Shown: positions 13,581-34,967 of the stretch, one piece after another
Layout: each line of letters begins with the position of its first letter
Numbering within the stretch: position 1 is the first letter of the stretch
DNA from: Bacteroidota bacterium
Lineage (GTDB): Bacteria > Bacteroidota > Ignavibacteria > UBA10030 > UBA8401
Assembly: GCA_019455105.1 (NCBI GenBank)
Contig: JACFMZ010000002.1
Span: forward strand, 1 to 51,505
Length of the DNA stretch: 51,505 bases
Direction: 5' to 3'
The notes under the pieces: model-generated
Seen by the model: only the letters and a program-made list of their open reading frames with translations
What the model was told of the DNA's origin: nothing
The model's database searches: none
Position numbers and translations under genes: made by a program

Positions 13581-14063
13581 TTATTTTTCCGGGCGAAAGT
13601 AAATCGGAAGGCGGGCTTCGCCGGCAATTTTTTCCGCCAGCTGTTTCCCTTCGCTGCTGAATGCCCAGCAGCATAATTCCTGAATGCGGTAAGTTTTTTG
13701 AATTTCGCGGAGCGAAGAAAGAACGAGATTTTTAATTATTCCTTTCCGCCGGAATTCCGGAAGAACAAGCGCAGAGCAGAGATAAAGAGCGGAAAATTCT
13801 TTTTCGCGCAGCGTTCGTTCAAACAGCTCTTTTTCGGAAAGCTGGCACGCAAGAAACAATTCCATAACGGAACGGGTAACGGGAATAACAATTGACCAGG
13901 CAGCCGGACCGTTTTCATTGTGGTATTCTCCCATACACGCAGGATGAACGGCGTGAAGCTGCGCCATTACCGCTTCGTTCACATCCAGCTGATTCGGATC
14001 ATTCTTTGCGCTGAAAAATTCATCCGCTAAGCGCATCAGCCGGGAAAAATTATCCTGTTTCAT
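13581..14063 (-). CDS. GNAT-like acetyltransferase
   Basis: The 160-residue protein (starting MKQDNFSRLMRLADEFF) shows the acetyl-CoA-binding pattern of GNAT enzymes, CSALVLPEFRRKGIIKNLVL (about residues 105-124), after a beta-rich stretch that includes AWSIVIPVT. The substrate is unknown. The start at 14063 is chosen because an upstream extension to 14264 would overlap the divergent gene at 14151 and has poor content. It converges with the epimerase gene. Confidence 0.65.
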   Translation of the reverse strand: MKQDNFSRLMRLADEFFSAKNDPNQLDVNEAVMAQLHAVHPACMGEYHNENGPAAWSIVIPVTRSVMELFLACQLSEKELFERTLREKEFSALYLCSALVLPEFRRKGIIKNLVLSSLREIQKTYRIQELCCWAFSSEGKQLAEKIAGEARLPIYFRPEK

Positions 14064-14150
14064 ATTGCTGCCATAAGAAGAAAAGAAAATTCGTTTCACA
14101 TTCCACTGAGAAAAATCGTATTTTATTCTGTCAATACAAAGGAAAAGTTT

Positions 14151-14390
14151 ATGAACGACCGCATTGCCATTGAACTGCGCTGCAGTAAAACACCGGACGG
14201 AAAATATAATGCAAAGACTTTCTTTAACGGTAAAGAACAAAAAGGAAAAGAATTTTCTGTTCATCGATCCACGGATTTTGCTGTGGTGCAGTTATATCAA
14301 CGGCTGAAAAACGAACATGCCGCTTCGGAAATACAGGTGAAAGGATTAGATCCGCAGAGCCTGCAAAAAATATTTCAATGGAAGAAATAA
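14151..14390 (+). CDS. Small hypothetical protein, 79 residues
   Basis: The product is charged and soluble (NDRIAIELRCSKTPDGKYNA at the start, ending LQKIFQWKK). I do not recognise a family. The first half looks beta-rich, the second helical. It is preceded by AAGGAAAAG, and its end overlaps or closely precedes the zincin gene, so the two are probably one transcript. Confidence 0.6.
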   Translation: MNDRIAIELRCSKTPDGKYNAKTFFNGKEQKGKEFSVHRSTDFAVVQLYQRLKNEHAASEIQVKGLDPQSLQKIFQWKK

Positions 14391-14413
14391 TAATTCCGGC
14401 ATTGGTATTCACT

Positions 14414-14791
14414 ATGACCCGCGAACAGTTTGAACACCTTGCTCAAGAAGCGTTCGACAATCTTCCGGCGGATTTTCGCGACCGCGTAGAGAATGTGCAG
14501 ATTGTTATCGAGGAATATCCTTCCGATGATGTGATAAAAAAAATGAAGATCAACCGCGGTTCGCTGTTAGGATTGTATCAAGGTATTCCGCTGACACAGC
14601 GCGGACAGTGGTACGGCATGAGCGCCACTGTTCCGGATAAAATTTCTCTCTACCAAAAAAATATTGAATCCGTCTGCCGGAACGATGAAGAAATTGAGCG
14701 GAGAATTACCGAAGTGCTGTACCACGAACTCGGACATTATTTTGGAATGGATGAAAAGCAGGTGAGAGAAGCGATGAGAAAGTTTATTTGA
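14414..14791 (+). CDS. Minimal zinc metallopeptidase-like protein (zincin_1)
   Basis: The 125-residue protein has MTREQFEHLAQEAFDNLP at its N-terminus and the zinc-binding signature YHELGHYFGMDE (HExxHxxxxxD) near the C-terminus, the pattern of the short metallopeptidase family often found in bacteria with unknown substrates. GLYQGIPLTQRG and IEEYPSDDV are typical family segments. An ATG 36 bases upstream at 14378, overlapping the preceding gene, is also possible; the later ATG fits the family's usual start. Confidence 0.8.
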   Translation: MTREQFEHLAQEAFDNLPADFRDRVENVQIVIEEYPSDDVIKKMKINRGSLLGLYQGIPLTQRGQWYGMSATVPDKISLYQKNIESVCRNDEEIERRITEVLYHELGHYFGMDEKQVREAMRKFI

Positions 14792-14855
14792 GTAATCAAT
14801 CTTGATTATGGAAATAAGGTCAGTTAGATTGTAGAAAAATAAAGAAGGTTATACT

Positions 14856-16436
14856 TTGAGCGATTTAATGAACATAAAAGAAGCCAGCGAGTGGGCTTCT
14901 CAATATTTAGGAAAATCTGTTACGCCGTCCAATATTTCATATTTAATTCAGTATGGAAGAGTAAAAAAAATTGGAGAAAACGGCAAAACGCAAATTTCAA
15001 AAAAAGAACTTGCTGAATATTATAAATCCTACAATGGAAAACGGGAACTTGAATGGAAAGATCAACTTGGCAATGATTTAAATTGGGCGTTGTCGTTTGA
15101 CCAATACAAAGAAGCAGAAACGACAAAACACGTTCACCGTCTGCATCCATATAAGGGAAAATTTATTCCTCAACTTGTTGAATATTTTCTCGACAATCAC
15201 ACCGATAAATTTAAGAAAGAAATCTACTTTCACAAAGGCGATATAATTCTTGACCCATTTTGCGGAAGTGGAACGACATTAGTACAGGCAAATGAGTTAG
15301 GAATGCACGCGGTTGGGATTGATATTTCTGCATTCAATGCACAAATAAGCAATTGCAAAATTACCAAATTTGATTTGGCTGATGTTCAAAACGAAATCAA
15401 TCGAATAACAAAATTATTAAAAAATTTTCTTGCCAATTCTCACACGGTAGAATTTGAAGCAAAGCTGTTAAAAGCATTGTACGAGTTTAACAACGAATAC
15501 TTTCCAGTTCCTGAATACAAATACAAAGTTAAAAGACGTGAGATAGATGAAAATAAATACGGCGCGGAAAAAGAAAAATTATTTCTTCCAACATTTAAAA
15601 AATTAGTAAAAGAATACAACGTAAAACTCCTTGATGAAAACCCCAAATCATTTTTAGAAAAATGGTATTCTCATCATATTCGGAATGAAATCGATTTTGT
15701 TTTTAATGAAATAAAAAAAATTAAAAATACCGAGACAAAAAGAATTATTAGCGTTATTTTAAGCCGCACCATTCGTTCTTGCAGAGCAACAACACACGCT
15801 GATTTAGCAACGTTGGTTGAACCGATTGCGACAACGTATTATTGCTCAAAACATGGAAAGATCTGTAAGCCGTTGTTTTCAATTCTAAAATGGTGGAAAA
15901 CATATACAAAAGACACAATTAATCGTCTTTCTGTGTTTAATAAAAAATATCGAACCCAAACATCACAATATTGTTTAGTCGGCGATGGGCAAACAATAGA
16001 TGTTCTAGAAAAGTTGGAAAAGAACAAACCTGATTTAGCAAAATTGGTAAAGAAGCAAAAGATTAACGGAATATTTTCCAGTCCTCCATACGTTGGCTTA
16101 ATTGATTATCACGAACAACACGCGTATGCTTACGATTTATTTGGTTTCAAACGCCAAGACAATTTAGAAATCGGGCGAATGGCTTTTGGGCAAGGAAGAG
16201 AAGCAAAGGAAAATTATGTAAAAGGAATTTCAGCCGTTCTTAATAATTGCAAAAAGTATTTGGCAAAAGATTACAACGTGTTCTTGGTTGCAAACGATAA
16301 ATGGGGTTTATATCCAAAGATTGCAGAAAATGCCGGAATGAAAATTGTCAATCAATTTAAACGTCCAGTATTAAATAGAACAGAAAAAGATAAAGGTGCG
16401 TATTCGGAAATAATTTTTCATTTGAAAGAAAAGTAA
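14856..16436 (+). CDS. Site-specific DNA methyltransferase (type II, N4-cytosine or N6-adenine)
   Basis: The 526-residue protein begins with a helix-turn-helix-like segment (MNIKEASEWASQYLGKSV...PSNISYLIQYGRVKKI, about 5-40), then HRLHPYKGKF, the AdoMet-binding motif I DPFCGSGTTLVQANELG (about 132-148), a long variable region likely holding target recognition, and motif IV SSPPY (about 407-411). The motif I before motif IV order with a long insert resembles the alpha arrangement, and SPPY favours N4-cytosine. It would protect DNA from the endonuclease encoded 2 bases downstream. The start is TTG at 14856 after AAGAAGG; an in-frame ATG follows at 14868. The gene is markedly AT-rich compared with its neighbours. 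Confidence 0.88.
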   Translation: MSDLMNIKEASEWASQYLGKSVTPSNISYLIQYGRVKKIGENGKTQISKKELAEYYKSYNGKRELEWKDQLGNDLNWALSFDQYKEAETTKHVHRLHPYKGKFIPQLVEYFLDNHTDKFKKEIYFHKGDIILDPFCGSGTTLVQANELGMHAVGIDISAFNAQISNCKITKFDLADVQNEINRITKLLKNFLANSHTVEFEAKLLKALYEFNNEYFPVPEYKYKVKRREIDENKYGAEKEKLFLPTFKKLVKEYNVKLLDENPKSFLEKWYSHHIRNEIDFVFNEIKKIKNTETKRIISVILSRTIRSCRATTHADLATLVEPIATTYYCSKHGKICKPLFSILKWWKTYTKDTINRLSVFNKKYRTQTSQYCLVGDGQTIDVLEKLEKNKPDLAKLVKKQKINGIFSSPPYVGLIDYHEQHAYAYDLFGFKRQDNLEIGRMAFGQGREAKENYVKGISAVLNNCKKYLAKDYNVFLVANDKWGLYPKIAENAGMKIVNQFKRPVLNRTEKDKGAYSEIIFHLKEK

Positions 16437-16437
16437 A

Positions 16438-17475
16438 ATGCTTGAAAAATCTAAAGTAGAAAAAATTTCTATTGAAGTAATAAAAACACTTTATTCTCGA
16501 TTTGAAAATTTCCCTGAAGACTCTTCCGATATTAGAAACGCGCCATTTCACATGGCGTTTTTAGAAGCATTTACAGATAAATTAAAAGGCAAGGTTTCAA
16601 ATGTACCGGTATTTATTAGTTTGGCAAGTTGGTTTCATGGATTAAATACCGCTTTAGGGCAAAGTTTTTTTGAAAGAACTGCACACATATTATCAGATGG
16701 CACAAAAAAAGGATTTAAAGATATAAAAATTTCATCTGACCAGCAGACAATTATTTCTGAAATAATATCAAATCTAAAAAACTCCGTTTATCAACCCAAT
16801 TTAAAACACGAAAATGAATTACTCTTACAGAACAATAATGATAAACATTCTAAAAGTATTCCAGAATTTACTGCTGATTGTTATTTTGAAGAAAAAACTA
16901 AATTGGTTTTAATTGAATTAAAAACGGTAAAGCCGAATAGCAGTATTTCTAAAGAATCAAAAGAAAAAATACTACAGGCCAAAGCAGGATTACAGAATAC
17001 AAATCCTCATAAAAAAATAATTTTTTATATAGGTTTTCCCTTTGATCCGCAAAGTAAAACTGCTACAGGATATAATAAAAAATCATTTTTTGATTATAAT
17101 GTTGAGTTTAAAAAATTTTTTGATCCCGATGAAGTGTTACTTGCCAGTGAATTGTGGGATTTTTTATCTGGAAATAAAAATACTATGGGACAAATATTAA
17201 AAATTATCAATGCAATTGCTACGCCTAAGTTTTTAGATGAATATGAATTTTTGAACAATCATGCAAATAGAGAAAAACAATCAGGCAAATATTTAATACT
17301 GTTAAAAAGATGGAATTTGTTTTCAGAATGCTATTTAATTAAAAATAGCAAAAAATTATACAAGGCAATCGAATCAGAACCAAGATTATTCAGAATTCTC
17401 AACCAACCAATATTTACAAAAGATGGTAAATATAACGAAAGTCGTTCTGCAAGATTAAAAGAGGCAATTAAATAA
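16438..17475 (+). CDS. Type II restriction endonuclease, TdeIII-like
   Basis: The 345-residue protein resembles the TdeIII restriction endonuclease family: PFHMAFLEAFTDKLKGKV, SLASWFHGLNTALGQSFFER and AHILSDGTKKGFKDIKIS. The PD-(D/E)XK-like core is IPEFTADCYF (Asp near 146) followed by VLIELKTVKPNS (Glu159, Lys161), then FYIGFPFDPQSKTATGY and ELWDFLSGNKNTMGQILKII. The founding enzyme cuts GGNCC; whether this one shares the target is inference. It starts one base after the methyltransferase stop, so they are one operon. It is strongly AT-rich, which suggests horizontal transfer. Confidence 0.82.
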   Translation: MLEKSKVEKISIEVIKTLYSRFENFPEDSSDIRNAPFHMAFLEAFTDKLKGKVSNVPVFISLASWFHGLNTALGQSFFERTAHILSDGTKKGFKDIKISSDQQTIISEIISNLKNSVYQPNLKHENELLLQNNNDKHSKSIPEFTADCYFEEKTKLVLIELKTVKPNSSISKESKEKILQAKAGLQNTNPHKKIIFYIGFPFDPQSKTATGYNKKSFFDYNVEFKKFFDPDEVLLASELWDFLSGNKNTMGQILKIINAIATPKFLDEYEFLNNHANREKQSGKYLILLKRWNLFSECYLIKNSKKLYKAIESEPRLFRILNQPIFTKDGKYNESRSARLKEAIK

Positions 17476-17491
17476 TTAGTTGGAGTGTATT

Positions 17492-17686
17492 ATGCGTAGC
17501 GATAAAGTTATTTACAGTTTATGCATCCAAGACATTCAGGTTGTCGCTCTTGAAATTTTGGATAGAAAACTTACTAAAGAAGAACTTGATAAAGTTTTGG
17601 GACCAATTGCCGATAGAATATCGTGGTATGATGTAATTGAAGACGTAATTACACAAGAAATTGAATTCAATTCTGACAAGCCATAA
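17492..17686 (+). CDS. Small protein of the restriction-modification operon, 64 residues
   Basis: The acidic product reads MRSDKVIYSLCIQDIQVVAL, then a helix-rich remainder with EELDKVLGPIADRISWYDVI. It contains no motif that I can assign. The ATG at 17492 has TTGGAG in good position; a TTG at 17480 is the alternative. It lies 16 bases after the endonuclease stop and before a strong terminator, so it belongs to the same transcript. A control protein is possible, but there is no clear helix-turn-helix. Confidence 0.7.
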   Translation: MRSDKVIYSLCIQDIQVVALEILDRKLTKEELDKVLGPIADRISWYDVIEDVITQEIEFNSDKP

Positions 17687-17729
17687 ATCTCTCCAATTCT
17701 TTTCGTATATTACACCGTCATTAAACACA

Positions 17730-17759
17730 ATCCCGCTTTTGTTTTGGCGGGATGTTTTT
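17730..17759 (+). terminator. Rho-independent terminator of the restriction-modification operon
   Basis: ATCCCGC (17730-17736) pairs with GCGGGAT (17747-17753) across a T-rich loop and is followed by GTTTTTA. A second small ATCCC/GGGAT stem follows near 17790-17810. Confidence 0.85.
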
Positions 17760-17870
17760 ATGTTTGCACACGCACGGGCAGATACCGTGTAAAAATCCCG
17801 CTTTACGGGATGCCGTACAGCGGCACATCACGGAATGACGCACTTTTTTTTGATTACTGAATACTAAACC

Positions 17871-19862
17871 ATGCTTGCAGTCAACAATCTCTCCATAAAT
17901 TACGGCGAACGGTATTTGTTCGACGATCTTTCATTTACCATTAATCCGCATGACCGTATCGGGCTGGTGGGAAGTAACGGTGCGGGAAAATCCACGCTCT
18001 TAAAAATTATTGCCGGCATCAATCCGCCGATGGAAGGAAGCGTCAATAAAGCACGCTTTATTACCACCGGTTATCTGCCTCAGGATGCTGTGGTAGAATC
18101 GGATCTTTCGCTTTACAAGGAAGTCGAATCGGCGTTTGAAGATGTGCTGATGATTGAACAGGAACTGCACGAGGCGTACGAGAAGCTTGCCGTGAGCGAT
18201 CATACTTCGGAAGAATATGCCGAGCTGCTGGAAATAATCGGCGAACTTCAGCATAAGCAGGAAGATGCCGATGCGTTCCGGTTGAAATCGAAAATTGAAA
18301 TAGTGTTAATGGGCTTGGGGTTTTCCGTTCCGGATTTGGAGCGGCAGACAAAAACATTCAGCGGCGGCTGGCAGATGCGTATTGCGCTGGCAAAACTGCT
18401 GCTGCTGGAACCTTCCGTTCTGCTTCTCGATGAGCCGACGAATCATCTCGATATTGAATCACTGCAATGGCTGGAAGAATATCTGCAGCAGTACAACGGC
18501 GCAATTATTCTTGTTTCCCACGACCGCGCTTTTCTGGATTCGCTTACCAAAAAAACCTTTGCACTTAGTTTGGGGAAAATGGAAATCTATTCCGGCAATT
18601 ATTCCTTTTATGAAAAAGAGCGGGTGCTTCGCAAAGAATTAATTCTTAATGCGAAAAAAAATCAGGAGCAGCAGTTAAAGCAAACAGAGGAATTTATTGA
18701 ACGCTTCCGCTATAAAGCAACAAAAGCGCGTCAGGTGCAGAGCCGTATAAAGCAGCTGGAAAAAGTTGAGCGGATTGAAGTGGAAGATGAAGAAGAAGAA
18801 ATTCATTTTCATTTTCCGCAGGCGCAGTCCAGCGGGCGCGTGGTAATGGAATTACAAAATATTCGCAAAACATATCCGCGCACTAACGGAGCAGGCGGAG
18901 AAAATATTGTGTATGACCAATTACAATATACGATTGAACGAGGCGATCGCATTGCCATTGTCGGCGTGAACGGCGCGGGAAAATCAACCATTTCAAAAAT
19001 TGCCGCCGGCATTGAAGCGTTTCAATCCGGCGAACGAATAGTCGGGTATAATGTTATTGTTTCGTATTTTGCCCAGCATCAGGCGGAAGAACTGGAGATG
19101 AATAAAGAAGTGCTGCAAACGGTGGATGAAGTGGCACAGGGAGAAATTCGAACCAAGCTGCGGTCGATACTCGGTTCGTTTTTATTCCGCGGCGATGATG
19201 TGTTCAAAAAAGTAAAAGTGCTTTCCGGTGGAGAAAAAAGCCGGCTGGCGCTTGCCAAAATGCTTCTGGCGCCGGCAAATTTTCTTATTATGGACGAGCC
19301 GACGAATCATCTCGATATGCGCTCAAAAAAAGTTCTGCAGGAAGCGTTAAAAGAATTTGACGGAACGTATCTTATTGTTTCGCACGACAGGGCATTTCTT
19401 GATACAATTGTCAATAAAGTGCTGGAAATTTCTCCCGGCGGAAAAATAAAAACATATCTCGGCAATGTCAGCGAATATCTTGAGGCGAAGAAAAAAGAAA
19501 AACAGCTTTCTCTAATTACCGGAGAAGTAAACCGCCGGCATGAAACGCCGTTGAATGCGTCAGCAGAGGTTCACGCTGCGCACGGAGATACTCGCGGGAA
19601 AGAGAACAAAGGAAATGGAAACACGGCACCGAAGAAAAATCTCTTTCAAATAAAAAAACGATTGGAAAAAATTGAAAAAGAAATTGCGCAGCTTGAAGAA
19701 GAGAAAAAGAAATTGGAAACAGCCATGACAAAGGCAGAATTTTTCAAACATCCCATTAAAGCAAAAACAATGACGTCGGAATATGACGAGATAACAAAAA
19801 AACTGAATGTGTTAATGGAAGAATGGGCGGAACTGGAAGAAGAACATGAAAATCAGCGTTGA
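17871..19862 (+). CDS. ABC-F family ATPase
   Basis: The 663-residue soluble protein has two ABC domains and no membrane part. Domain 1 has GSNGAGKST (about residues 35-43), FSGGWQMRIALAKLL and LLLDEPTNHLDI. Domain 2 has GVNGAGKST (about 364-372), LSGGEKSRLALAKML and LIMDEPTNHLD. The linker (QLKQTEEFIERFRYKATKAR) is typical of ABC-F proteins, which act on the ribosomal E site. A basic C-terminal coiled coil (KKRLEKIEKEIAQLEEEKKK) resembles the Uup/YdiF type. A translation factor or ribosome-protection role is likely; which subgroup cannot be decided here. Confidence 0.92.
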   Translation: MLAVNNLSINYGERYLFDDLSFTINPHDRIGLVGSNGAGKSTLLKIIAGINPPMEGSVNKARFITTGYLPQDAVVESDLSLYKEVESAFEDVLMIEQELHEAYEKLAVSDHTSEEYAELLEIIGELQHKQEDADAFRLKSKIEIVLMGLGFSVPDLERQTKTFSGGWQMRIALAKLLLLEPSVLLLDEPTNHLDIESLQWLEEYLQQYNGAIILVSHDRAFLDSLTKKTFALSLGKMEIYSGNYSFYEKERVLRKELILNAKKNQEQQLKQTEEFIERFRYKATKARQVQSRIKQLEKVERIEVEDEEEEIHFHFPQAQSSGRVVMELQNIRKTYPRTNGAGGENIVYDQLQYTIERGDRIAIVGVNGAGKSTISKIAAGIEAFQSGERIVGYNVIVSYFAQHQAEELEMNKEVLQTVDEVAQGEIRTKLRSILGSFLFRGDDVFKKVKVLSGGEKSRLALAKMLLAPANFLIMDEPTNHLDMRSKKVLQEALKEFDGTYLIVSHDRAFLDTIVNKVLEISPGGKIKTYLGNVSEYLEAKKKEKQLSLITGEVNRRHETPLNASAEVHAAHGDTRGKENKGNGNTAPKKNLFQIKKRLEKIEKEIAQLEEEKKKLETAMTKAEFFKHPIKAKTMTSEYDEITKKLNVLMEEWAELEEEHENQR

Positions 19863-24855: not shown

Positions 24856-25031
24856 TGCGTTATCTTCCTTTTCTATCATGAATGTTCTTGAGCTGAGAGA
24901 ATGGTAGAGAGTTATAGAAAAAAAAGCAAGAAATTTAAAATATTTATTTTTTAAAATCGTGTCCTAAACGCCCTTTAAAAAAGATATAAATATAATGAGG
25001 GGTATTGTTTAATAAGCAATAAGGAGAAAGT

Positions 25032-27875
25032 ATGAAAAACCTCACGATACAAATGCTTCTGTGCATCACTCTTTTTCCGGCGATTCTCTTTTCGCAGCAA
25101 AGCAGCATGCTCTACTATCGTTCAGCAGTTATGGACGGAAATAACGTTAAAACAGTTTTTGGAAATTGGGGGGTAATTGCCCAGCCGATTGATACGAAAC
25201 CGAGAGGCGCCTGGCGGTATCCTGCGAACGGATATTTCGGCGATGAATCAATAATGATCGGCGTCGAGTTTCCGATAAAGGATTATAATAATGACGGAAT
25301 TTTAGATACACTTCGCTCGGTAATAACCTGTCCTGTTGCCCGCCCGGCAAAAAATCCAGATTCAAGTCCCCAAGGTGATCACTGGACATTCTTACCGCTC
25401 AACACAACAGTGAATGAAAATTCAACGAGCGTTCCAATAAGCAATGATCCTTCATCATGGCCTCTGTCGTGGAACGGTCAGTGGAAGGGAATGAACGCGG
25501 AGGGAAAAATAGACGCTGATTTGGAATCATATTTTGAAATGAATGATCAAAATGATCTGCGGTATAATTTTTCCGCAAATAATGAATTTGGTTATGCCGT
25601 TCACCCTGATTCAACAAATAGCAACCGAAACGGCGCAGGGCTGCGGGTTGCGGTGCGCTATTTGCAGTTCAACGATCCGCTGTTTAAAGATCTTTTGTTT
25701 CGCGTGTATGATATTACCAATGAAGGAACCACAAATTATTCAAAACTCTTTTTCGGATATTTGGTAGGAACCTATATCGGCGTAACCGGTGCAACAGATT
25801 TTAGAGAATACGATGATGATTATTCTATATTCTATAAAAAAGAAAATTTAATTCTCGCCGGCGATTATCCGCAGGATAATTCCCGTAATCCTTTTTGGAG
25901 AGGTTCTGTCGGAAAAGTAGGTTTTACATTTATTGATGCGCCGAACCGCAATGAAATTGGCAGTTATAATTATTTCGCTCCTGCCGGCAATATTGATTTA
26001 CGAAATGATAAGACGTTATGGAAAATGTTTTCGGAAGGAACAAATTCCACACCGGCATCAATTGTGAATGATACAACGGTGCTGCACGGTGAAGATGGTG
26101 ATTTTACATTCGGCTCGCATTATTTTCCTCTTAATGGAGGAGAAACAAAACGGATTGCTTCGGTAATTGTCTTTGATTCGCTGAAAGATAATCTGGTGAT
26201 TAAAACAAAATTTGCTCAGGTTTTGTATCGAAATAATTTCGATCGGTCAAAAATCGGTGCCTCGTTAAGTCTAAAAAATTTAAATTCCTTCAAAAAAATT
26301 TCCGAAACTTTTACCGTGCAATGAAACGCAGCGGCATCTACTGATGATTCTGTTGAAATTTATTTCAGCCCGAACGCCGGCGAAACGTGGAGCTGCATCG
26401 CTGAAAAAGTACCAAATACCGGAAGCTATGTATGGAACACGAAATATGTACCGGATTGTGCGTTTGGTGAAATTGCAGTCTTTATAAAAAATCATAACGG
26501 GGAATATTATGATTTTTCATTAAGCAATAACTTTGTGATTGATAACGAACAGAACGGCGCGCCGTTTATACAAATTGCCGACCCGATAGAGAGTGGCTTA
26601 TTAGTGACCGATTCGATAATAACATTTCACATCCTTGCCGGAGATCCGGAGACAGCATTGTTGCAGCTGCAATGTTGGGCTGATGTTGGTTATGGATTTG
26701 TTCAATTTCATTCGCAGAATATCACCTCCGATTCGACATTTCAAACGATTGTCGTTCCGCTTTCTCAAGCACCGAACGGTGATAAATTTATTTTAAAAAC
26801 TATTATTTCGGATAATAACAGCACGTATGAAGTGATAAATGAGCCTTTCTCAAAACATACACAGAAAAAAATACTGACGACAACAAACGCTCAGTTTAAG
26901 AATCGTAATACAACCGTTCCGGTTCAAATTAATGTTGCAGAGAGAAATAAAGTAACGAATGATCTTTACTATATAACATTTAACGATACAACCTCTTATC
27001 ATGAAAAGAGATTTTCTGTGTATAATGTTTCGCAGGGGAAATATACTGTTGACAACGAACTATTGTACACGAAAGCGGAAACAAAGCCGTTTGACGGTTT
27101 AACAATGTATGCGGAAGATGTGCAAACAACTATGGATAGTCTCTTTTGGAAATCTGTAAACAACTATCAATATAGAACTTCTTTCTCTACTGTTGATATT
27201 CCTTCTATTGATTTATATGCCTATCCCAATCCATCGGATTATAAAATTATTTATTATGATCATGTTGTTGATACGTCTCTTTCGCGGTTCGGAGCAACGG
27301 CAGTTCCGGTTACCTATTCCATAATAAACAGCAGTACCAATGAAAAAATAAAATTTATTGCCGATGAAGGAACGAGTTATCTCCAGCGATTTTTATTTGT
27401 GAAAATCGAAAACAGTGAGAGGTACACTTGGTCTCTTATCATTCAGCCGCCGTTCGGCAAAGCTGAAAACATTTTACCCGTTGCCGGAGATACGTTCTAT
27501 ATTGTTACGAAAAAAGGTCTTTCATTTCGCGATACGATTGAAGTAAAAAATGTTGCGCTCGGTATCAGTGATTTGAGAAATTCACTCCCTCAATCAATGG
27601 TGTTGTATCAAAATTATCCGAATCCGTTTAATCCTGCAACCGTCATTAGCTATCAACTGCCGGCGGCGGGCATAGTGCGGTTGAAAATATTTGATATGTT
27701 GGGAAGAGAAATCGCCGTGCTGGTAAACGAAGAACAAAACGCAGGAATACAATCAGTGGTGTGGAATGCAGCAAATTGTGCGAGCGGAATATATTTTTAC
27801 CGGCTTGAAGCAGCGAATAACTCGTTCGGATCGGGAACGTTTGTTGATGTAAAGAAAATGCTGCTCTTAAAATAA
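25032..27875 (+). pseudogene. Large T9SS surface protein gene interrupted by one in-frame TGA
   Basis: From the ATG at 25032 (AAGGAG upstream) one frame runs to 27875 with a single stop, TGA at 26322-26324; no other stop occurs in 947 codons. The N-terminal part has a signal peptide (MKNLTIQMLLCITLFPAILF) and a beta-rich extracellular region. After the stop the frame continues EIYFSPNAGETWSCIAEKVP and ends with the sorting module (VLYQNYPNPFNPATVISYQL, then GREIAVLVNEEQ, ASGIYFYRLEA). The stop follows FTVQ and is followed by NAAAS, a place where related repeats carry Trp, so TGG changed to TGA is likely. Without readthrough the product loses its secretion signal. A separate start at a GTG (26535) lacks a signal peptide. 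Confidence 0.82.
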
Positions 27876-28590: not shown

Positions 28591-29379
28591 TTAAAAATCC
28601 TTTCTCTTAAAATATCTGCTGCTGAAGAAAAACGGTATAATAATCCACGCTGCAAGAGCAAGAAACGAAATAATAAATCCCAGCGAATCTCCGAAGAATT
28701 TTTGAAACACCGCTCCGGTGTATCCCATAAGGGCGGCAATATTAAACTTCATAAGAAATAAAATTCGTCCGAGATCAATCGGGTTTAAAATAGTAAGCGC
28801 AATCATGCTTTGTTCAAGTGGATATTCCTGAAACAGGTAAATAAGCAGAAGCACAATACCGTCGTACGCTACCGCCAGCACAAGCCAGATAAAAATAGCA
28901 ATGCCGAGCCCCTTGGCTTTATCATCCTGCCGGACGGAAATGAGAAATGAAAGCGCAATAAAAATAAAGGTGAGCAGAATGCCCATCAGCAGCAGCACAA
29001 GAAATCCTCCGAATTGGTCGTTCACTTTGCCGAAGAGGAAAAAAGGAAGTGAAAATCCGACAGCAAAGCCGGCGGAGATGGGAATGGATGTTCCTAAAAA
29101 TATTCCGCGGTACAGCGATTTCCGGTCAATCGGCTGGCTGAGCATCATTTCAATAAATTCGCGCGAGTTGTAAAAATAAATTGAGCCGAAAATAATTGCC
29201 ACGAGCGGAATAATAAGAATAATGATATTCATTAAACTAATGTACGCTTTGCTGACATCGCCGCTGAAGGTAAACAAACCGTACCCGACGAAAAAAAAGA
29301 AGGCAGTGTAAAACGCCACCCATTTGCTTCGAATAGTGTTGTGAATTTCGTAGAATAAAATTTCTTTTACTAATTTCAT
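28591..29379 (-). CDS. nosY: Nos ABC transporter permease
   Basis: The 262-residue protein has about six membrane segments (WVAFYTAFFFFVGYGLFTF, IIILIIPLVAIIFGSIYF, and others) and the ABC-2-type motif NSREFIEMMLSQPIDR. With NosF and NosD it forms the NosDFY complex that supports assembly of the copper-sulfur centre CuZ of NosZ. It is last in the nos gene order and starts 25 bases after nosF. Confidence 0.87.
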   Translation of the reverse strand: MKLVKEILFYEIHNTIRSKWVAFYTAFFFFVGYGLFTFSGDVSKAYISLMNIIILIIPLVAIIFGSIYFYNSREFIEMMLSQPIDRKSLYRGIFLGTSIPISAGFAVGFSLPFFLFGKVNDQFGGFLVLLLMGILLTFIFIALSFLISVRQDDKAKGLGIAIFIWLVLAVAYDGIVLLLIYLFQEYPLEQSMIALTILNPIDLGRILFLMKFNIAALMGYTGAVFQKFFGDSLGFIISFLALAAWIIIPFFFSSRYFKRKDF

Positions 29380-29404
29380 AATGAATACCGGAAGAGGGAA
29401 AAAT

Positions 29405-30118
29405 TTATTGTGGTAAACTCCGTGTCATCAATTCGGCAACTGCTCTCTCAAGCTTTGTTTCGTTTTTATCTTCAAGCAGAGACTGAACGCTTCCGTGAAA
29501 TTTAATTTCTCCGTCGAGCAGAAAAACAATTTCATCCGAAAGCTCCTGCACATCGTTCATAAGATGAGAAGTGAGCAGAATTGTTTTCTTTAGTTCTTTC
29601 TGCTTCAGTACCAAATCTTTAAAATAACTGCTGGAAACGGGATCCAGCCCAGCCGTCGGCTCATCGAGAATAATAATTTTCGGATTGAACGCGAAAGCAA
29701 TAAGCGTGGAAATTTTTTGTTTTGTTCCGCCGGAAAGATTTTTAAACGGCTTTTCCATTTCTTTTTCAAGATTAAATATTTTCATCAACTCGTCATCATC
29801 ATAGTCGTTCAAATGTCTGATGGAGCGAATTAACGAGAGAATTTCATTGCCGGTTAAATTTTCGGGATACCGGGCGGTTTGTGGCATATATCCGATACTG
29901 TTGCGGTAGGCAAAATCATCGGCAATGCTTTTTCCGTTCACTTCAATAGTTCCGGCGGAAAGTTTTACGAGTCCTAAAATTGATTTTATGAGCGTTGTTT
30001 TTCCGGAGCCGTTCGGGCCGACAACAGCAGTAACTTTTCCTTCTTCAAAGGTAACGTTGATATTTTTTAGAACGGAAACCTTTCCGAAATTTTTTTGGAG
30101 ATTTTTTATCGTAATCAA
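29405..30118 (-). CDS. nosF: Nos ABC transporter ATP-binding protein
   Basis: The 237-residue ATPase has Walker A GPNGSGKTT (about 32-40), signature LSGGTKQK (about 129-136), Walker B IIILDEPTAGLD (about 148-159) and H-loop LLTSHLM. It pairs with NosY as the energising subunit for CuZ maturation. Its ATG overlaps the nosD stop by 4 bases. Confidence 0.9.
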   Translation of the reverse strand: MITIKNLQKNFGKVSVLKNINVTFEEGKVTAVVGPNGSGKTTLIKSILGLVKLSAGTIEVNGKSIADDFAYRNSIGYMPQTARYPENLTGNEILSLIRSIRHLNDYDDDELMKIFNLEKEMEKPFKNLSGGTKQKISTLIAFAFNPKIIILDEPTAGLDPVSSSYFKDLVLKQKELKKTILLTSHLMNDVQELSDEIVFLLDGEIKFHGSVQSLLEDKNETKLERAVAELMTRSLPQ

Positions 30119-31383
30119 AGTGCGGGCCTCATTCTTGGCTGTGAATCGGTTAACGCTTTCGGAGTAATTGCCGGTATAATGCTTTCGGCAATATTCATCA
30201 TATCAATAAATAAACTGTGCAGAAGAATCAGCGCCGTCGGTTGAGATTCAATAATCATAGAGAACATTGTTACGGGGCGAAAGGGAACATCGCCGTAGCC
30301 GTCGTTATTCAAATCGTATCCTTTATACGCCGCCCAGTAATTTTTAGAAAAGGTATTAAAATTTTGCCGGCTGTTGGTGGAGACATCGAACGCATTGGCG
30401 ATAAAATTATTATCGTAAAAATAATTATCCATCGAGTTTGCCATCAGCTTGAGCGCCCAGCCGTTTTTACTGAAGGTGTTGTTTGAAATTGTTACTCTTC
30501 CGCATCCTTCCATATATAAGCCGACTGAGTTCTGGTCAATAATATTTCGTTCAATTTTACTGTCTGAAATATCTTTCAGCAAAATTCCGTACGATGTGGT
30601 TCCCCAGTTGTTAATAAAATGATTCTCTTTCATCAGCACATTTTTTGTGTACATTACGGCAACACCGGCGCCGTTCTGTTCAAACGTATTGTTGGCGTAC
30701 TCGCAGCTGTCGGAATACATAAAATGGAGTCCGTACCGCAGATTTCCTTTGCTGTAATTATTTTGAATTTTTCCGTTTCGAACAAATTCAAAATAAATAC
30801 CGTCGCGGTGATTAAGTATTTGATTATTGATGATTGTAATATCTCTGCAATACCATAAATGAATACCGTTGCCCGAGGTAACTTCGCGGACGCTTTCTCC
30901 CTTGATAAAATTATTTTCAATGGTACAATCAGCCGCTTTGGCGAGATAGACAGCAAAAAAATTATTTAAAAACTTACAGTTTGTAATTGAACAGTTCTTC
31001 ACTTCCTTTAATTTTATTCCGGCATTTTCTTCCAGAAAACTTAATCCCGAACCCTGTATCTGTAATCCTGAAAAATGCACATCATCGGCGGTTACAGTGA
31101 AAATTTCTCCCTCTTCTTTTCCGTCAATCACCGGAAAATTATCGCCGATGATGGTAATTTTTTTATTCACCAAAATATTTCCTTCGGCATATTCGCCGCT
31201 GGTAACCAGAAGAGTATCGGAAGGATTTGCCAGAAGAAGCGCGGCAGAAATTGTTTTCACCGGCCCGTTTTTGGAAACGGTAATTGTCGTTGCCGAAACG
31301 CTGCAGGCAAACAGAAAAATAACAACAGCAAGAGTTGTTGAAAGAGTAATTTTTTTTGGAATGGACATGTTAGACGGTGCCAT
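30115..31383 (-). CDS. nosD: Periplasmic copper-processing protein NosD
   Basis: The 422-residue protein has a signal peptide (KITLSTTLAVVIFLFACSVS) and right-handed beta-helix repeats of the carbohydrate-binding CASH type (NCSITNCKFLNNFFAVYL, TIINNQILNHRDGIYFE, GKIQNNYSKGNLRYGLHF and later turns) through about residue 350, with the NosD-typical NWGTTSYGILLKDI. It delivers or processes copper for NosZ from the periplasm. A later Met at 31368 is an alternative start. Confidence 0.9.
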   Translation of the reverse strand: MAPSNMSIPKKITLSTTLAVVIFLFACSVSATTITVSKNGPVKTISAALLLANPSDTLLVTSGEYAEGNILVNKKITIIGDNFPVIDGKEEGEIFTVTADDVHFSGLQIQGSGLSFLEENAGIKLKEVKNCSITNCKFLNNFFAVYLAKAADCTIENNFIKGESVREVTSGNGIHLWYCRDITIINNQILNHRDGIYFEFVRNGKIQNNYSKGNLRYGLHFMYSDSCEYANNTFEQNGAGVAVMYTKNVLMKENHFINNWGTTSYGILLKDISDSKIERNIIDQNSVGLYMEGCGRVTISNNTFSKNGWALKLMANSMDNYFYDNNFIANAFDVSTNSRQNFNTFSKNYWAAYKGYDLNNDGYGDVPFRPVTMFSMIIESQPTALILLHSLFIDMMNIAESIIPAITPKALTDSQPRMRPAL

Positions 31384-31401
31384 GAGAAGAAGGGACTTCC
31401 C

Positions 31402-31857
31402 TTACATGCTTCGCTGGCGCACTAACTCAATAACATCAACCCAGCTCATCGGCGTACCGCCGTTTTCCTGCAGAAATTTTTGAGCTTCTTCTTTGGCGCC
31501 GAAAGCGCTGACGTTTAATCCCATCGGACTGCGAAAATTTTCATTCTGAATATAAAAAGCCGATTGCGGGTTGGTGAAGGTTTCGGGTTTTAAGAAATCG
31601 GTAACAAAAAACTTTTGTTTCCCATCGGCAATAATACTTTTTGCCAGTGCATATTTAATTAAGCATTCAATGGAATCAAATTTTAAAACTTTTCCTTTGT
31701 CGGTAACTATCTCGGCGCCGTATCGATTGTCGGTAATAAGCATGCGGCAATGTTCGCATTCATCCTGTCCGTACTGTATCGGACTGGGGTGAGTGCTGCA
31801 TCCGGCAAGAAGGAGAATTGAAATACTAAAAGCAAAGAAAAAGATTTTTTTATACAT
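31402..31857 (-). CDS. nosL: Copper chaperone lipoprotein NosL
   Basis: The 151-residue protein has a lipobox (LLLAGCSTH, Cys20) and the copper-binding motif CEHCRMLI near residues 33-40, followed by the NosL fold (AEIVTDKGKVLKFDSIECLI, then VTDFLKP and an MGLNVSAFGAKEEAQKFLQE segment). NosL binds Cu(I) and hands copper to the NosZ assembly system. Its ATG overlaps the end of the upstream membrane protein gene by 8 bases. Confidence 0.92.
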   Translation of the reverse strand: MYKKIFFFAFSISILLLAGCSTHPSPIQYGQDECEHCRMLITDNRYGAEIVTDKGKVLKFDSIECLIKYALAKSIIADGKQKFFVTDFLKPETFTNPQSAFYIQNENFRSPMGLNVSAFGAKEEAQKFLQENGGTPMSWVDVIELVRQRSM

Positions 31858-32437
31858 GGGTATTCAATTTTTCTTTTCTATCAAGATATAATGCCGCCGC
31901 TGCCAGCAGAACCGAAAGTGCAAGAATCCAGGAACTAATTGAGGGAAGCGAGATAGCATTGAAATTTAAAAGCATTTTTGAACCGATAAGCGGCGGCTGA
32001 TACGCCATACCCGGAACTTTAATTGCCGCGTGCGGATTCAGATCGTGTCCGTAGTCGTATTCCCACAAATAAAAATCGTATAAGCCGACGACGGCAATAA
32101 CAAAAAATAATATTAACCAGGTAGAGACCAGAGTTTTCTTTCCGGAGATTCCCGCGGTTAAACCAAAGAGAATTAAGAAAATAATGATGTACGGCATTAT
32201 TTTTAATTCGGGAATAGCATCGGCTTCAATTTTTTTCATGCCAATGTAATGATTCAGCATGTTAATATTTTCTAAATCATTTTCTCCCTGGCCGGTTACT
32301 TTTGTCAGCCAGATTTCCAAACCAAGTCCTTCTGGGTATTGCGGCGCTTCAAGATTAACTTTCCAGAGCGGAAAGAAGAACGATAGGATTAATATCAGCG
32401 AGGCAATAATAACAAGAATTTTAGATTTATGTTTCAT
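31850..32437 (-). CDS. Multi-pass membrane protein of the nos cluster
   Basis: The 195-residue protein has about five hydrophobic segments (ILVIIASLILILSFFFPLW at the start; LKIMPYIIIFLILFGLTAGI; TWLILFFVIAVVGLYDFYLW; ISSWILALSVLLAAAALYL). Between the first two lies a soluble loop with NMLNHYIGM. I do not recognise a named family. Its position right after nosZ resembles the membrane protein NosB of clade II clusters, but homology cannot be judged here. The ATG at 32437 is preferred to a TTG 12 bases upstream. Confidence 0.75.
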   Translation of the reverse strand: MKHKSKILVIIASLILILSFFFPLWKVNLEAPQYPEGLGLEIWLTKVTGQGENDLENINMLNHYIGMKKIEADAIPELKIMPYIIIFLILFGLTAGISGKKTLVSTWLILFFVIAVVGLYDFYLWEYDYGHDLNPHAAIKVPGMAYQPPLIGSKMLLNFNAISLPSISSWILALSVLLAAAALYLDRKEKLNTHV

Positions 32438-32457
32438 GGTGTACCACAAAATTAAAG

Positions 32458-32491
32458 CAGCACAGATCCGCTGTAAACGGAATCTGTGCTG
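32458..32491 (-). terminator. Strong hairpin between nosZ and the downstream nos genes
   Basis: CAGCACAGATCCG (32458-32470) pairs with CGGAATCTGTGCTG (32478-32491) with one bulged base and a 7-base loop. On the minus strand CTTTAATTTT follows. It lies 15 bases after the nosZ stop and may act as a partial terminator or as a stabiliser of the nosZ messenger. Confidence 0.72.
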
Positions 32492-32506
32492 AACGTAAGT
32501 GATTAA

Positions 32507-34462
32507 TTATTTGCCGGTTCCAAAAGATAATTTAACATTCGATCCTTTGGGTGATACTCTTAAGTATCCCTGCATTTCTTGGTGAAGAGCAGAGCAGAAA
32601 TCCGTGCAATAGAACGGATAAATTCCTTCTGCTTTCGGTTCCCATTTTAAAGTTTCGGTTGCACCGGGTAAAATAAGTAATTCAGAGTTCGGTGCTCCCT
32701 TTACGGCGAAGCCGTGCGGAATATCCCAATCTTGTTCAAGATTTGTTACGTGGAAATAGACGACATCGCCGACTTTAATTCCTTCAATATTATCGGGAGC
32801 AAAGTGTGTGCGAATGGTTGACATATACACATGCACTTCATTTCCGTTTCGAACGACGCGCGCATCTTTTTCCGCTTTAATGCCGTACGGATGCTGATTT
32901 TCTTCAATCTTATAAATTTTCTTTGAGTTCTTCATAATAATATCGGCGGGAATAGCCTGTGCGTAATGCGGTTCGCCGATCGTCGGAAAATCTAACAGCA
33001 GTTTCATTTTATCGCCGGAAATATCAATCAACTGTGCGGATTGGGTCAGTTCGGGACCGGTCGGTAAATATCGATCTTTGGTAATTTTATTAAGAGCTAC
33101 AACATATTTTCCCCACGGTTTTTTTGTATCGCCGCCGGGAATACATAAGTGACCAATAGAATAGTACGTCGGAATTCTATCCACAACTTCCCAGGTTCCG
33201 ACTTTCCATTTTACAATTTCGGAAGAAATAAAGTTCGACGTGTACGCATATCCTTTATCGTCAAATTCCGTATGAAGAGGTCCTAAGCCGGGATTTTGTA
33301 CTTCGCCGGCTACAACCGATTCATATTTTATCACCGGAATGCCGTCAATAGTTTTTTCAAACTCCTTATTCTCAATTGCTTTCAACATTTTCTCAAAAGA
33401 ATGCGCTGTAATGGTTGAAGAAAGTTTTCCTCCGGCAACAATGTATTCGCCGGTCGGGTTCACATCAACGCCGTGCGGAGATTTCGGTGTCGGCAGATAA
33501 TAAATCATTCCCGGGCATTCTTCGGGCAGAAGAACCTTTACGCTGGTTTTTTTATTTGAAACGCCCATGTGTTTCTTTTCATCATAGCGATTAATAAAAT
33601 AATCGGCGCTGACGGTTTTTGCTTTTCCTTTGGCTGCGTATTCTTCGGCTTTCTTCCAGTTAATAGCGGCAATAAAATCTTTGTCATGCTGTGAGGCATT
33701 CACTTCTAATAATGTGTTTGCCTGCTCGGTGTTGTAACTGGTAAAAAATGCCCAATCGTGCGACGGACCTTTTCCGGAATGAGAAAGATCATAATCAAAG
33801 CCGGGAACTAAAATTTGAAAAGCAATATCCATGGCGCCGTCTTTTGCCACTTTTACAAAGCTGATAGTTCCTTTGAAATTTTCTTTGTATGATTTAATCG
33901 GAACATCTTTGTTGGGAATCGGAACGCTGAAACGAGTTGAAGCAACAACGTACTCTGTATTTTCGGTGAGGAACGGCGAACCGTGATTTCCTGCCGAGTT
34001 CGGAATTTCAATAATCTCTGCAGTGGTAAAGGTAGAGAGATCCATTCTGGCAATTCGCGGCGTGTTGTTACCGTTAATGAACAGCCATCGTCCGTCGGCA
34101 ACACCGTCGGTCTGCGACAATTCCGGATGGTGCGCATCATCCCATGGAATAAAACCATGCGTAGTCATCAGCATCGGTTTTGATTCTTCAGAGTAACCCC
34201 ATGCCTTTTCAGGATCTTGAGAGAATACGGGAATCACTCTAAACAATCTTCCGCTGGGCAGACCATAGACGCCAACCTGTCCGCTGAAGCCGCCGGAAGT
34301 GAAAAGATAAAAATCATCGTACGTTCCGGGCGGAACATATACTTTTGCTGCCTCATCGCCGGTCGTAAGATTTTTTGAATCTTGACAACTGTAATGTACC
34401 ACCGTAAATGCCGCTAAGAGTAGAACGGCATAGAGAGTGTTCTTGAGGTATTTTTTGTTCAT
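32507..34462 (-). CDS. nosZ: Nitrous-oxide reductase, Sec-dependent clade II type
   Basis: The 651-residue enzyme reduces N2O to N2 in the periplasm. The N-terminus is a Sec or lipoprotein signal (KYLKNTLYAVLLLAAFTVVH, then YSC) without twin arginine, as in clade II. The seven CuZ histidines can be seen in DAHHPE (two), GPSHDW, SPHGVD, GPLHTEF, SIGHLC and EPHYAQ. The C-terminal cupredoxin domain holds the CuA ligands in FYCTDFCSALHQEMQGYLRV (Cys, Cys, His, Met). It is preceded by a cytochrome c gene (28 bases) that may be its electron donor. Confidence 0.96.
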   Translation of the reverse strand: MNKKYLKNTLYAVLLLAAFTVVHYSCQDSKNLTTGDEAAKVYVPPGTYDDFYLFTSGGFSGQVGVYGLPSGRLFRVIPVFSQDPEKAWGYSEESKPMLMTTHGFIPWDDAHHPELSQTDGVADGRWLFINGNNTPRIARMDLSTFTTAEIIEIPNSAGNHGSPFLTENTEYVVASTRFSVPIPNKDVPIKSYKENFKGTISFVKVAKDGAMDIAFQILVPGFDYDLSHSGKGPSHDWAFFTSYNTEQANTLLEVNASQHDKDFIAAINWKKAEEYAAKGKAKTVSADYFINRYDEKKHMGVSNKKTSVKVLLPEECPGMIYYLPTPKSPHGVDVNPTGEYIVAGGKLSSTITAHSFEKMLKAIENKEFEKTIDGIPVIKYESVVAGEVQNPGLGPLHTEFDDKGYAYTSNFISSEIVKWKVGTWEVVDRIPTYYSIGHLCIPGGDTKKPWGKYVVALNKITKDRYLPTGPELTQSAQLIDISGDKMKLLLDFPTIGEPHYAQAIPADIIMKNSKKIYKIEENQHPYGIKAEKDARVVRNGNEVHVYMSTIRTHFAPDNIEGIKVGDVVYFHVTNLEQDWDIPHGFAVKGAPNSELLILPGATETLKWEPKAEGIYPFYCTDFCSALHQEMQGYLRVSPKGSNVKLSFGTGK

Positions 34463-34490
34463 TGCTGCTCCTTGAAATTGTTTTGTGGGT

Positions 34491-34967
34491 TTATTTTTTA
34501 GCTTTTAAGCCTTCATCGAGAACTCTAAAGTATTCAAGCAATTCTCTCGCATCTTGAAGATTAACGTTCTGGTTTGTCATTCGTTGTAAATAGACGGCAA
34601 GCATTTGTTTTGCGTGCGGGTGTTTATCAATGTTTTCATCCGGATTCAGCACCATGTTCATAAAAAATTCCGGTGTTACTCGTTCCAAAACATTTCGCTG
34701 CGCCGGTCCGACATAGCGTTCATCAAGTTTATGGCATGAAGCACATTTTGATTCAAAAATCTTTTCTCCCTTTGCCGCCATTTTTTTATCAATTGCGCCG
34801 AGAACAACTTTTTCTTTTACCGGACCAAAACCGTTTTCTTTTTCCCATGCCGAAAGCTCCGGTTCCGAAGTTTTTGCTGTGCTCTTTTTATTGGAACTGT
34901 CACCGCATCCGGCAAGCATTAAAATCGAAAGAGACATAAATGCTGCGGATAAAATAAATTTTTTCAT
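34491..34967 (-). CDS. Lipid-anchored c-type cytochrome of the nos cluster
   Basis: The 158-residue protein has a lipobox (LMLAGCGDS, Cys21), a charged linker, one haem c site CASCHKLDERYVGP (about 75-88) and Met residues in the tail that could be the axial ligand (HAKQMLAVYLQRM). It is first in the nos transcript, and clade II clusters often carry such cytochromes, so it probably feeds electrons to NosZ. An AGGAG motif precedes the start. Confidence 0.88.
   Translation of the reverse strand: MKKFILSAAFMSLSILMLAGCGDSSNKKSTAKTSEPELSAWEKENGFGPVKEKVVLGAIDKKMAAKGEKIFESKCASCHKLDERYVGPAQRNVLERVTPEFFMNMVLNPDENIDKHPHAKQMLAVYLQRMTNQNVNLQDARELLEYFRVLDEGLKAKK

Follow-up and report, generated by a model that had tools for sequence, protein, structure and literature searches.

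A single in-frame TGA in a predicted T9SS cargo gene of an Ignavibacteria metagenome assembly, and a similar stop in infB of the same assembly

The split frame at the locus

The window analysed here is a stretch of 51,505 nucleotides (positions 1 to 51,505 of contig JACFMZ010000002.1, assembly GCA_019455105.1) from a Bacteroidota bacterium of the Ignavibacteria. Near its middle, a forward-strand frame can be read from an ATG at 25032 to a TAA at 27873-27875, and the TGA at 26322-26324 is the only stop inside it. The whole frame has 947 codons with the TGA counted, of which 430 lie 5' and 516 lie 3' of the stop. The features discussed below are as follows.

25021..25026, +, ribosome-binding motif AAGGAG, read in the sequence, just 5' of the ATG at 25032
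25032..26324, +, first part of the frame, with 430 codons, the TGA, a leader seen by eye, and an N-terminal domain
25110..26249, +, N-terminal domain, residues 27-406, tentative (structure model, pLDDT mostly 24-80)
26292..26561, +, first Ig-like domain, residues about 421-510 (structure model, block pLDDT 74-89)
26322..26324, +, the in-frame stop, TGA, where Trp is conserved
26325..27875, +, second part, with 516 codons, the TAA, Ig-like domains, and a sorting domain
27615..27824, +, T9SS type A sorting domain, residues 862-931 (TIGR04183 and PF18962 over their cut-offs)

When 26325-27872 was shuffled 2000 times, the longest open run from the first base reached 110 codons, so that the 516-codon run after the TGA is not a product of chance. 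No restart codon with a ribosome-binding motif was seen by eye in the first 190 codons of the second part. A preliminary description, made from the sequence alone, had reported one protein of 947 codons divided by a single in-frame TGA, and this is confirmed: the frame is otherwise open, and the homologues of the protein are encoded in single frames.

Two other regions of the window may be mentioned. Positions 28591-34967 hold a nitrous oxide reductase cluster, in which a Sec-dependent NosZ (TIGR04246, 960 bits) and NosD exceed their cut-offs, and in which an ABC ATPase, a permease-like protein, a NosL-like lipoprotein, and a cytochrome were recognized by eye. Positions 14001-18000 are low in G+C (0.32-0.36) and carry a methyltransferase-like gene with an unmatched partner, a restriction-modification pair by eye.

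Architecture of the encoded protein

Judged from its sequence, the 947-codon frame is predicted to encode one T9SS type A cargo protein of an ordinary kind. A hydrophobic leader can be seen by eye at the start of the first part, which belongs to no named family. The sorting domain that the preliminary description had placed in the second part is indeed there, with 38.2 bits for TIGR04183 (cut-off 23) and 32.4 bits for PF18962 (cut-off 27). With a real stop at the TGA, leader and sorting domain would not share a frame. The same genome encodes SprA (TIGR04189, 1085.7 bits) in an open frame of 2360 amino acids and gives 92 sorting-domain matches.

In the structure model, the N-terminal domain has a low-confidence likeness to the beta-sandwich at the N terminus of GH94 phosphorylases (best Z 9.8, with an rmsd of 4.3 over 207 residues). 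The TGA corresponds to residue 431, the last residue of the strand 426-431 of the first Ig-like domain, where the model has good confidence; PF10342 matches residues 424-471 weakly (E 0.059, below the cut-off). At the other end, the model resembles two known C-terminal domains, PorU's over residues 855-947 (Z 9.5, with an rmsd of 2.5) and PorZ's over residues 853-947 (Z 9.0, with an rmsd of 2.4). A Foldseek search with the whole model returned generic Ig-like chains only. These weak fold matches hint at a cell-surface, possibly glycan-related role. In its leader (by eye), its sorting domain, the presence of SprA, and its PorU/PorZ-like C-terminal fold, the protein is like known T9SS type A cargo (Por_Secre_tail/TIGR04183), from which it differs in that its frame is cut by one TGA in the assembly.

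The cargo family is a patchy mosaic, and shared neighbours are absent across the seven homologous regions compared. Further large proteins in the group share the N-terminal domain (residues about 27-406). What lies beyond residue 403 or so also stands behind other N-terminal domains, one of which, in the same genome, is esterase-like (named by eye). A relative, G008, has a natural short form of 510 amino acids (L009, contig C171), in which the N-terminal domain (about 52% identity) is fused directly to the sorting domain. The region after about residue 430 is thus dispensable in principle, with the sorting domain retained in that short form.

Homologues and the tryptophan position

Each of the 100 related genomes searched gave a match of some kind, in most cases because sorting domains are common. 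Full-length homologues were found in six of them, at 35 to 48% identity, every one unsplit and stop-free; natural gene fission, considered as a candidate, is ruled out by these single frames. The preliminary description had noted that orthologues naturally split at this site would speak against its proposal, and these six homologues run through it.

The same description had called the site a probable Trp position, which is borne out. W431 is invariant in the seven rows of alignment A1; the row of the window shows W there only through reading the TGA as W, so that the independent evidence is six out of six full-length homologues. With W in the query, all 31 alignments that cover residue 431 show W (32 loci, with L009 lacking the module), one of these rows, L033, being a paralogue from the same genome. 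With X in the query, 29 alignments cover the position and 21 show W; the other eight are L009 (again without the module), L020 (a gap), and six distant rows (23 to 27% identity), in which we take the placement of gaps to have shifted. Because all six unsplit homologues carry Trp at this site, comparison of the sequences indicates that the ancestral codon at 26322-26324 was almost certainly TGG, one G-to-A transition away from TGA.

A single scan of genome contigs for a second record of the same species, a weak test with patterns led by the sorting domain, returned only distant relatives, and a scan of phage records gave no match.

The sequence after the stop

The 516 codons 3' of the TGA show neither a further stop nor excess divergence. 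The ratio of identity after the site to identity before it is 0.60-0.90 in the six pairs that include the window and 0.61-0.82 in 15 other pairs, a test in which a very young pseudogene would give the same picture. The third-position G+C is 0.37 both before and after the TGA. If a transition weight of 4 is assumed, about 0.057 neutral substitutions per site are enough to bring the probability of no further stop down to 5%. The relaxed constraint to be expected of a pseudogene was thus not seen 3' of the lesion, and since there is no decay downstream of the TGA, any real lesion would be young.

Genetic code, release factor, and tRNAs

TGA ends 46 of the 254 genes of at least 200 codons sampled in this genome, and it also ends rimM and rplS. 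The gene of RF2, prfB, is there without an internal stop, and the other 14 Trp codons of the split protein are all TGG. The code is therefore the standard one, as the preliminary description had concluded from rplS and rimM.

Among 34 tRNA matches (ARAGORN), none had the anticodon UCA of a UGA suppressor. No tRNA-Trp was found in the assembly by an exact anticodon-loop pattern or by a looser search, and three pattern matches lacked the sequence common to the tRNA-Trp of relatives. In relatives, a Thr-Tyr-Thr-Gly tRNA cluster precedes tRNA-Trp; contig C33 (L044) of this assembly ends right after Thr-Tyr. Because the contig stops inside the cluster, we take the missing tRNA-Trp to be an assembly gap and not a loss. 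The tRNA-Thr(GGT), tRNA-Gly(TCC), and tRNA-Trp that follow in relatives are all absent from the tRNAs found here. In the tRNA-Trp of five family members (L179:1470-1543, L175, L173, L174, and L170), the anticodon stem is topped by a G27-U43 wobble pair, and pattern matches to tRNA-Trp from other families have C instead of T at position 43.

In-frame stops elsewhere in the assembly

The MAG consists of 197 contigs with a total of 3.03 Mb. A sample of 489 kb, later enlarged to 875 kb (about 29% of the MAG), was surveyed for same-frame stops by codon statistics and then by eye. The 875 kb gave 50 candidates, most of which are ordinary tandem neighbouring genes. Four stops are spanned by a family or a homologue: the focal TGA and the following three.

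L218:6828-6830 (contig C142), +, TGA inside infB (IF-2), at a conserved Gly
L220:18752-18754 (contig C183), -, TGA within the sorting domain of a second T9SS cargo protein, with PF18962 spanning the stop
L267:2115-2117 (contig C62), -, TAG in a GH5 glycosidase, inside PF00150, which spans the stop

A further TAG, at L255:835-837 (contig C22, forward strand), may cut a secreted repeat protein; no family spans it, there may be two genes, and it was left uncounted.

The second of the four carries most of the argument. The infB frame matches IF-2 over positions 4-585 of 587 with one TGA inside, and it is the only full-length IF-2 among the matches listed for this MAG. In the motif QKG(T/S/M)L, caught in six of the eight loci fetched from relatives, the TGA stands where the Gly would be. 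IF-2 is essential in bacteria. A true stop in this gene should not be viable, so that the consensus very probably is wrong at this TGA and holds false nonsense codons. A lesion similar to the focal one therefore lies in a gene that must be intact. In a poorer assembly, that of the relative G068 (C54:276-2015), a full-length infB is also listed with one TGA, the sole other case among 99 genomes.

At the C183 stop, Trp is not the residue expected, and it is the one case in 92 of a sorting-domain match with a stop inside. Both SprA and rpoC are stop-free, from which it follows that the secretion route is present and that errors are sparse.

For comparison, 400 kb of the genomes G010, G012, and G006 were surveyed. 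The rows of G012 and G006 were dropped, these genomes being richer in G+C and their candidates looking like open frames of the opposite strand. The 14 stretches of G010 (280 kb) gave four candidates, all of them tandem genes by eye; the resulting zero stops in 280 kb of control is not significantly below four in 875 kb. In a homology-based survey of the sample (about 115 kb lying under relatives' ORFs), the stops in real genes were the focal one and that on C183, and the rest were read as antisense matches. No frame-shifted gene was seen in these 115 kb or so, and errors, if present, are for this reason taken to be substitutions. From four stops and a stop fraction of 3.4%, their rate is estimated at roughly 1 to 2 in 10,000 bases. 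If errors are assumed to be even over coding DNA, of which roughly a tenth is assumed to be essential, one hit in an essential gene would be accompanied by several elsewhere, which is enough for the other three stops.

Origin of the stop

The best reading, to which we give a probability of about 55%, is that the TGA is a consensus error or a minority allele. A Trp codon of an intact cargo gene would have become TGA through a single changed base (TGG to TGA) in the metagenome-assembly consensus, the source being either a base error of the assembly or a minority or strain-mixed allele that the consensus picked. This option leads because a TGA also sits in infB of the same assembly, and we infer that the focal stop shares the false origin of the infB stop. 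The TGA, although present in the sequence, is then probably absent from the organism or has no function of its own. The case is like that of base errors in MAG consensus sequences in its isolated, stop-making substitutions in unrelated genes, one of them essential; it differs in being known from the consensus alone. A search of the literature on errors in MAGs and on T9SS in Ignavibacteria gave nothing that matched all terms, and one on T9SS pseudogenes gave unrelated papers only. A point against an error is that three of the four supported stops lie in dispensable genes, which may carry true nonsense alleles as well.

Second in rank, and distinctly less probable although a serious contender, is a real and recent G-to-A nonsense mutation, fixed or common in the population. 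The product of 430 codons would reach the periplasm without a sorting domain and would not be displayed, and the gene would be a young pseudogene or a strain polymorphism. T9SS cargo proteins are numerous and dispensable, as the 92 sorting-domain matches in this genome illustrate; the gene family is patchy, with no shared neighbours in seven homologous regions; and the lesion is single, whereas an unconstrained frame would be 95% likely to hold a second stop after about 0.057 substitutions per site, so that the lesion would be young. On the other hand, nothing after the TGA looks decayed, and the infB stop, which is impossible in a living population, lowers the trust to be placed in any single stop of this assembly. 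The locus resembles single-nonsense young pseudogenes and strain polymorphisms in accessory genes in having one lesion in an otherwise intact frame, but here the lesion is known from an assembly consensus in which the essential infB has a like one. An error and a real nonsense mutation make the same predictions for all of the sequence tests run except infB, which favours error, and the 875-kb sample does not allow each single stop to be assigned to errors or to real variants. The preliminary description had put a recent mutation first and had named an error only as something to be checked; the mutation now stands second.

Programmed or tolerated readthrough of the UGA, with tRNA-Trp inserting Trp so that a short form in the periplasm and a full one at the surface are made, is improbable. 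The TGA does stand exactly at a Trp position, and the G27-U43 wobble of the five checked family members recalls PMC13092985, according to which unpairing of 27-43 in tRNA-Trp raises UGA readthrough in E. coli. But a G-U pair differs from the unpaired state tested in that paper, and the close relatives with a G27-U43 tRNA-Trp include G010 and G008. Programmed readthrough would be expected to leave the stop conserved in homologues, but none of the six full-length ones has it, and all have Trp. RF2 is intact, the infB TGA would need Gly, and the GH5 stop is a TAG. The likeness to the weakened-stem tRNA-Trp of PMC13092985 is thus a UGA at a Trp site; the differences are that no homologue keeps the UGA and that the other stops here do not fit Trp. 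The wider idea that the lineage tolerates scattered UGA codons through a leaky G27-U43 tRNA-Trp, one gene thereby giving a periplasmic protein of 430 residues as well as the full surface form, is more doubtful still. The readthrough option of the preliminary description thus finds no support, there being no UGA suppressor among the tRNAs found (tRNA-Trp itself is missing from the assembly).

The same description had also offered phase-variable loss of surface display, an on/off switch that we consider very unlikely. In its favour, phase variation commonly acts on surface proteins. The lesion, however, is an in-frame substitution and not a product of slippage; the TGA site lies in no simple repeat or close inverted repeat; and 26200-26500 matches only itself in this genome, which leaves no second copy to serve as a template. 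Neither a slippage tract nor an invertible or templated segment was found at the site, and the proposal is accordingly set aside.

Genome-wide reassignment of UGA, favoured by three TGAs among the four supported in-gene stops, can practically be dismissed, the in-gene TGA positions calling for different residues in a genome with RF2, with TGA as a regular terminator (46/254 genes, besides rimM and rplS), and with TGG at the 14 other Trp positions of the split protein. A small remainder of probability is kept for something not thought of.

Meaning for the organism and for other assemblies

If the gene is intact, as the reading of the TGA as a consensus error or minority allele would have it, its product would be a surface protein that leaves the cell through SprA and is held at the surface by its C-terminal sorting domain, which follows an N-terminal domain and several Ig-like domains. 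With infB broken in the same assembly, a split surface protein should not be taken for biology, or for two genes, without reads. More generally, before weight is given to a meaningful-looking stop in a MAG, one should ask whether indispensable genes are also broken in that assembly. If the stop is real, the organism would have lost one surface protein among about 92 sorting-domain matches.
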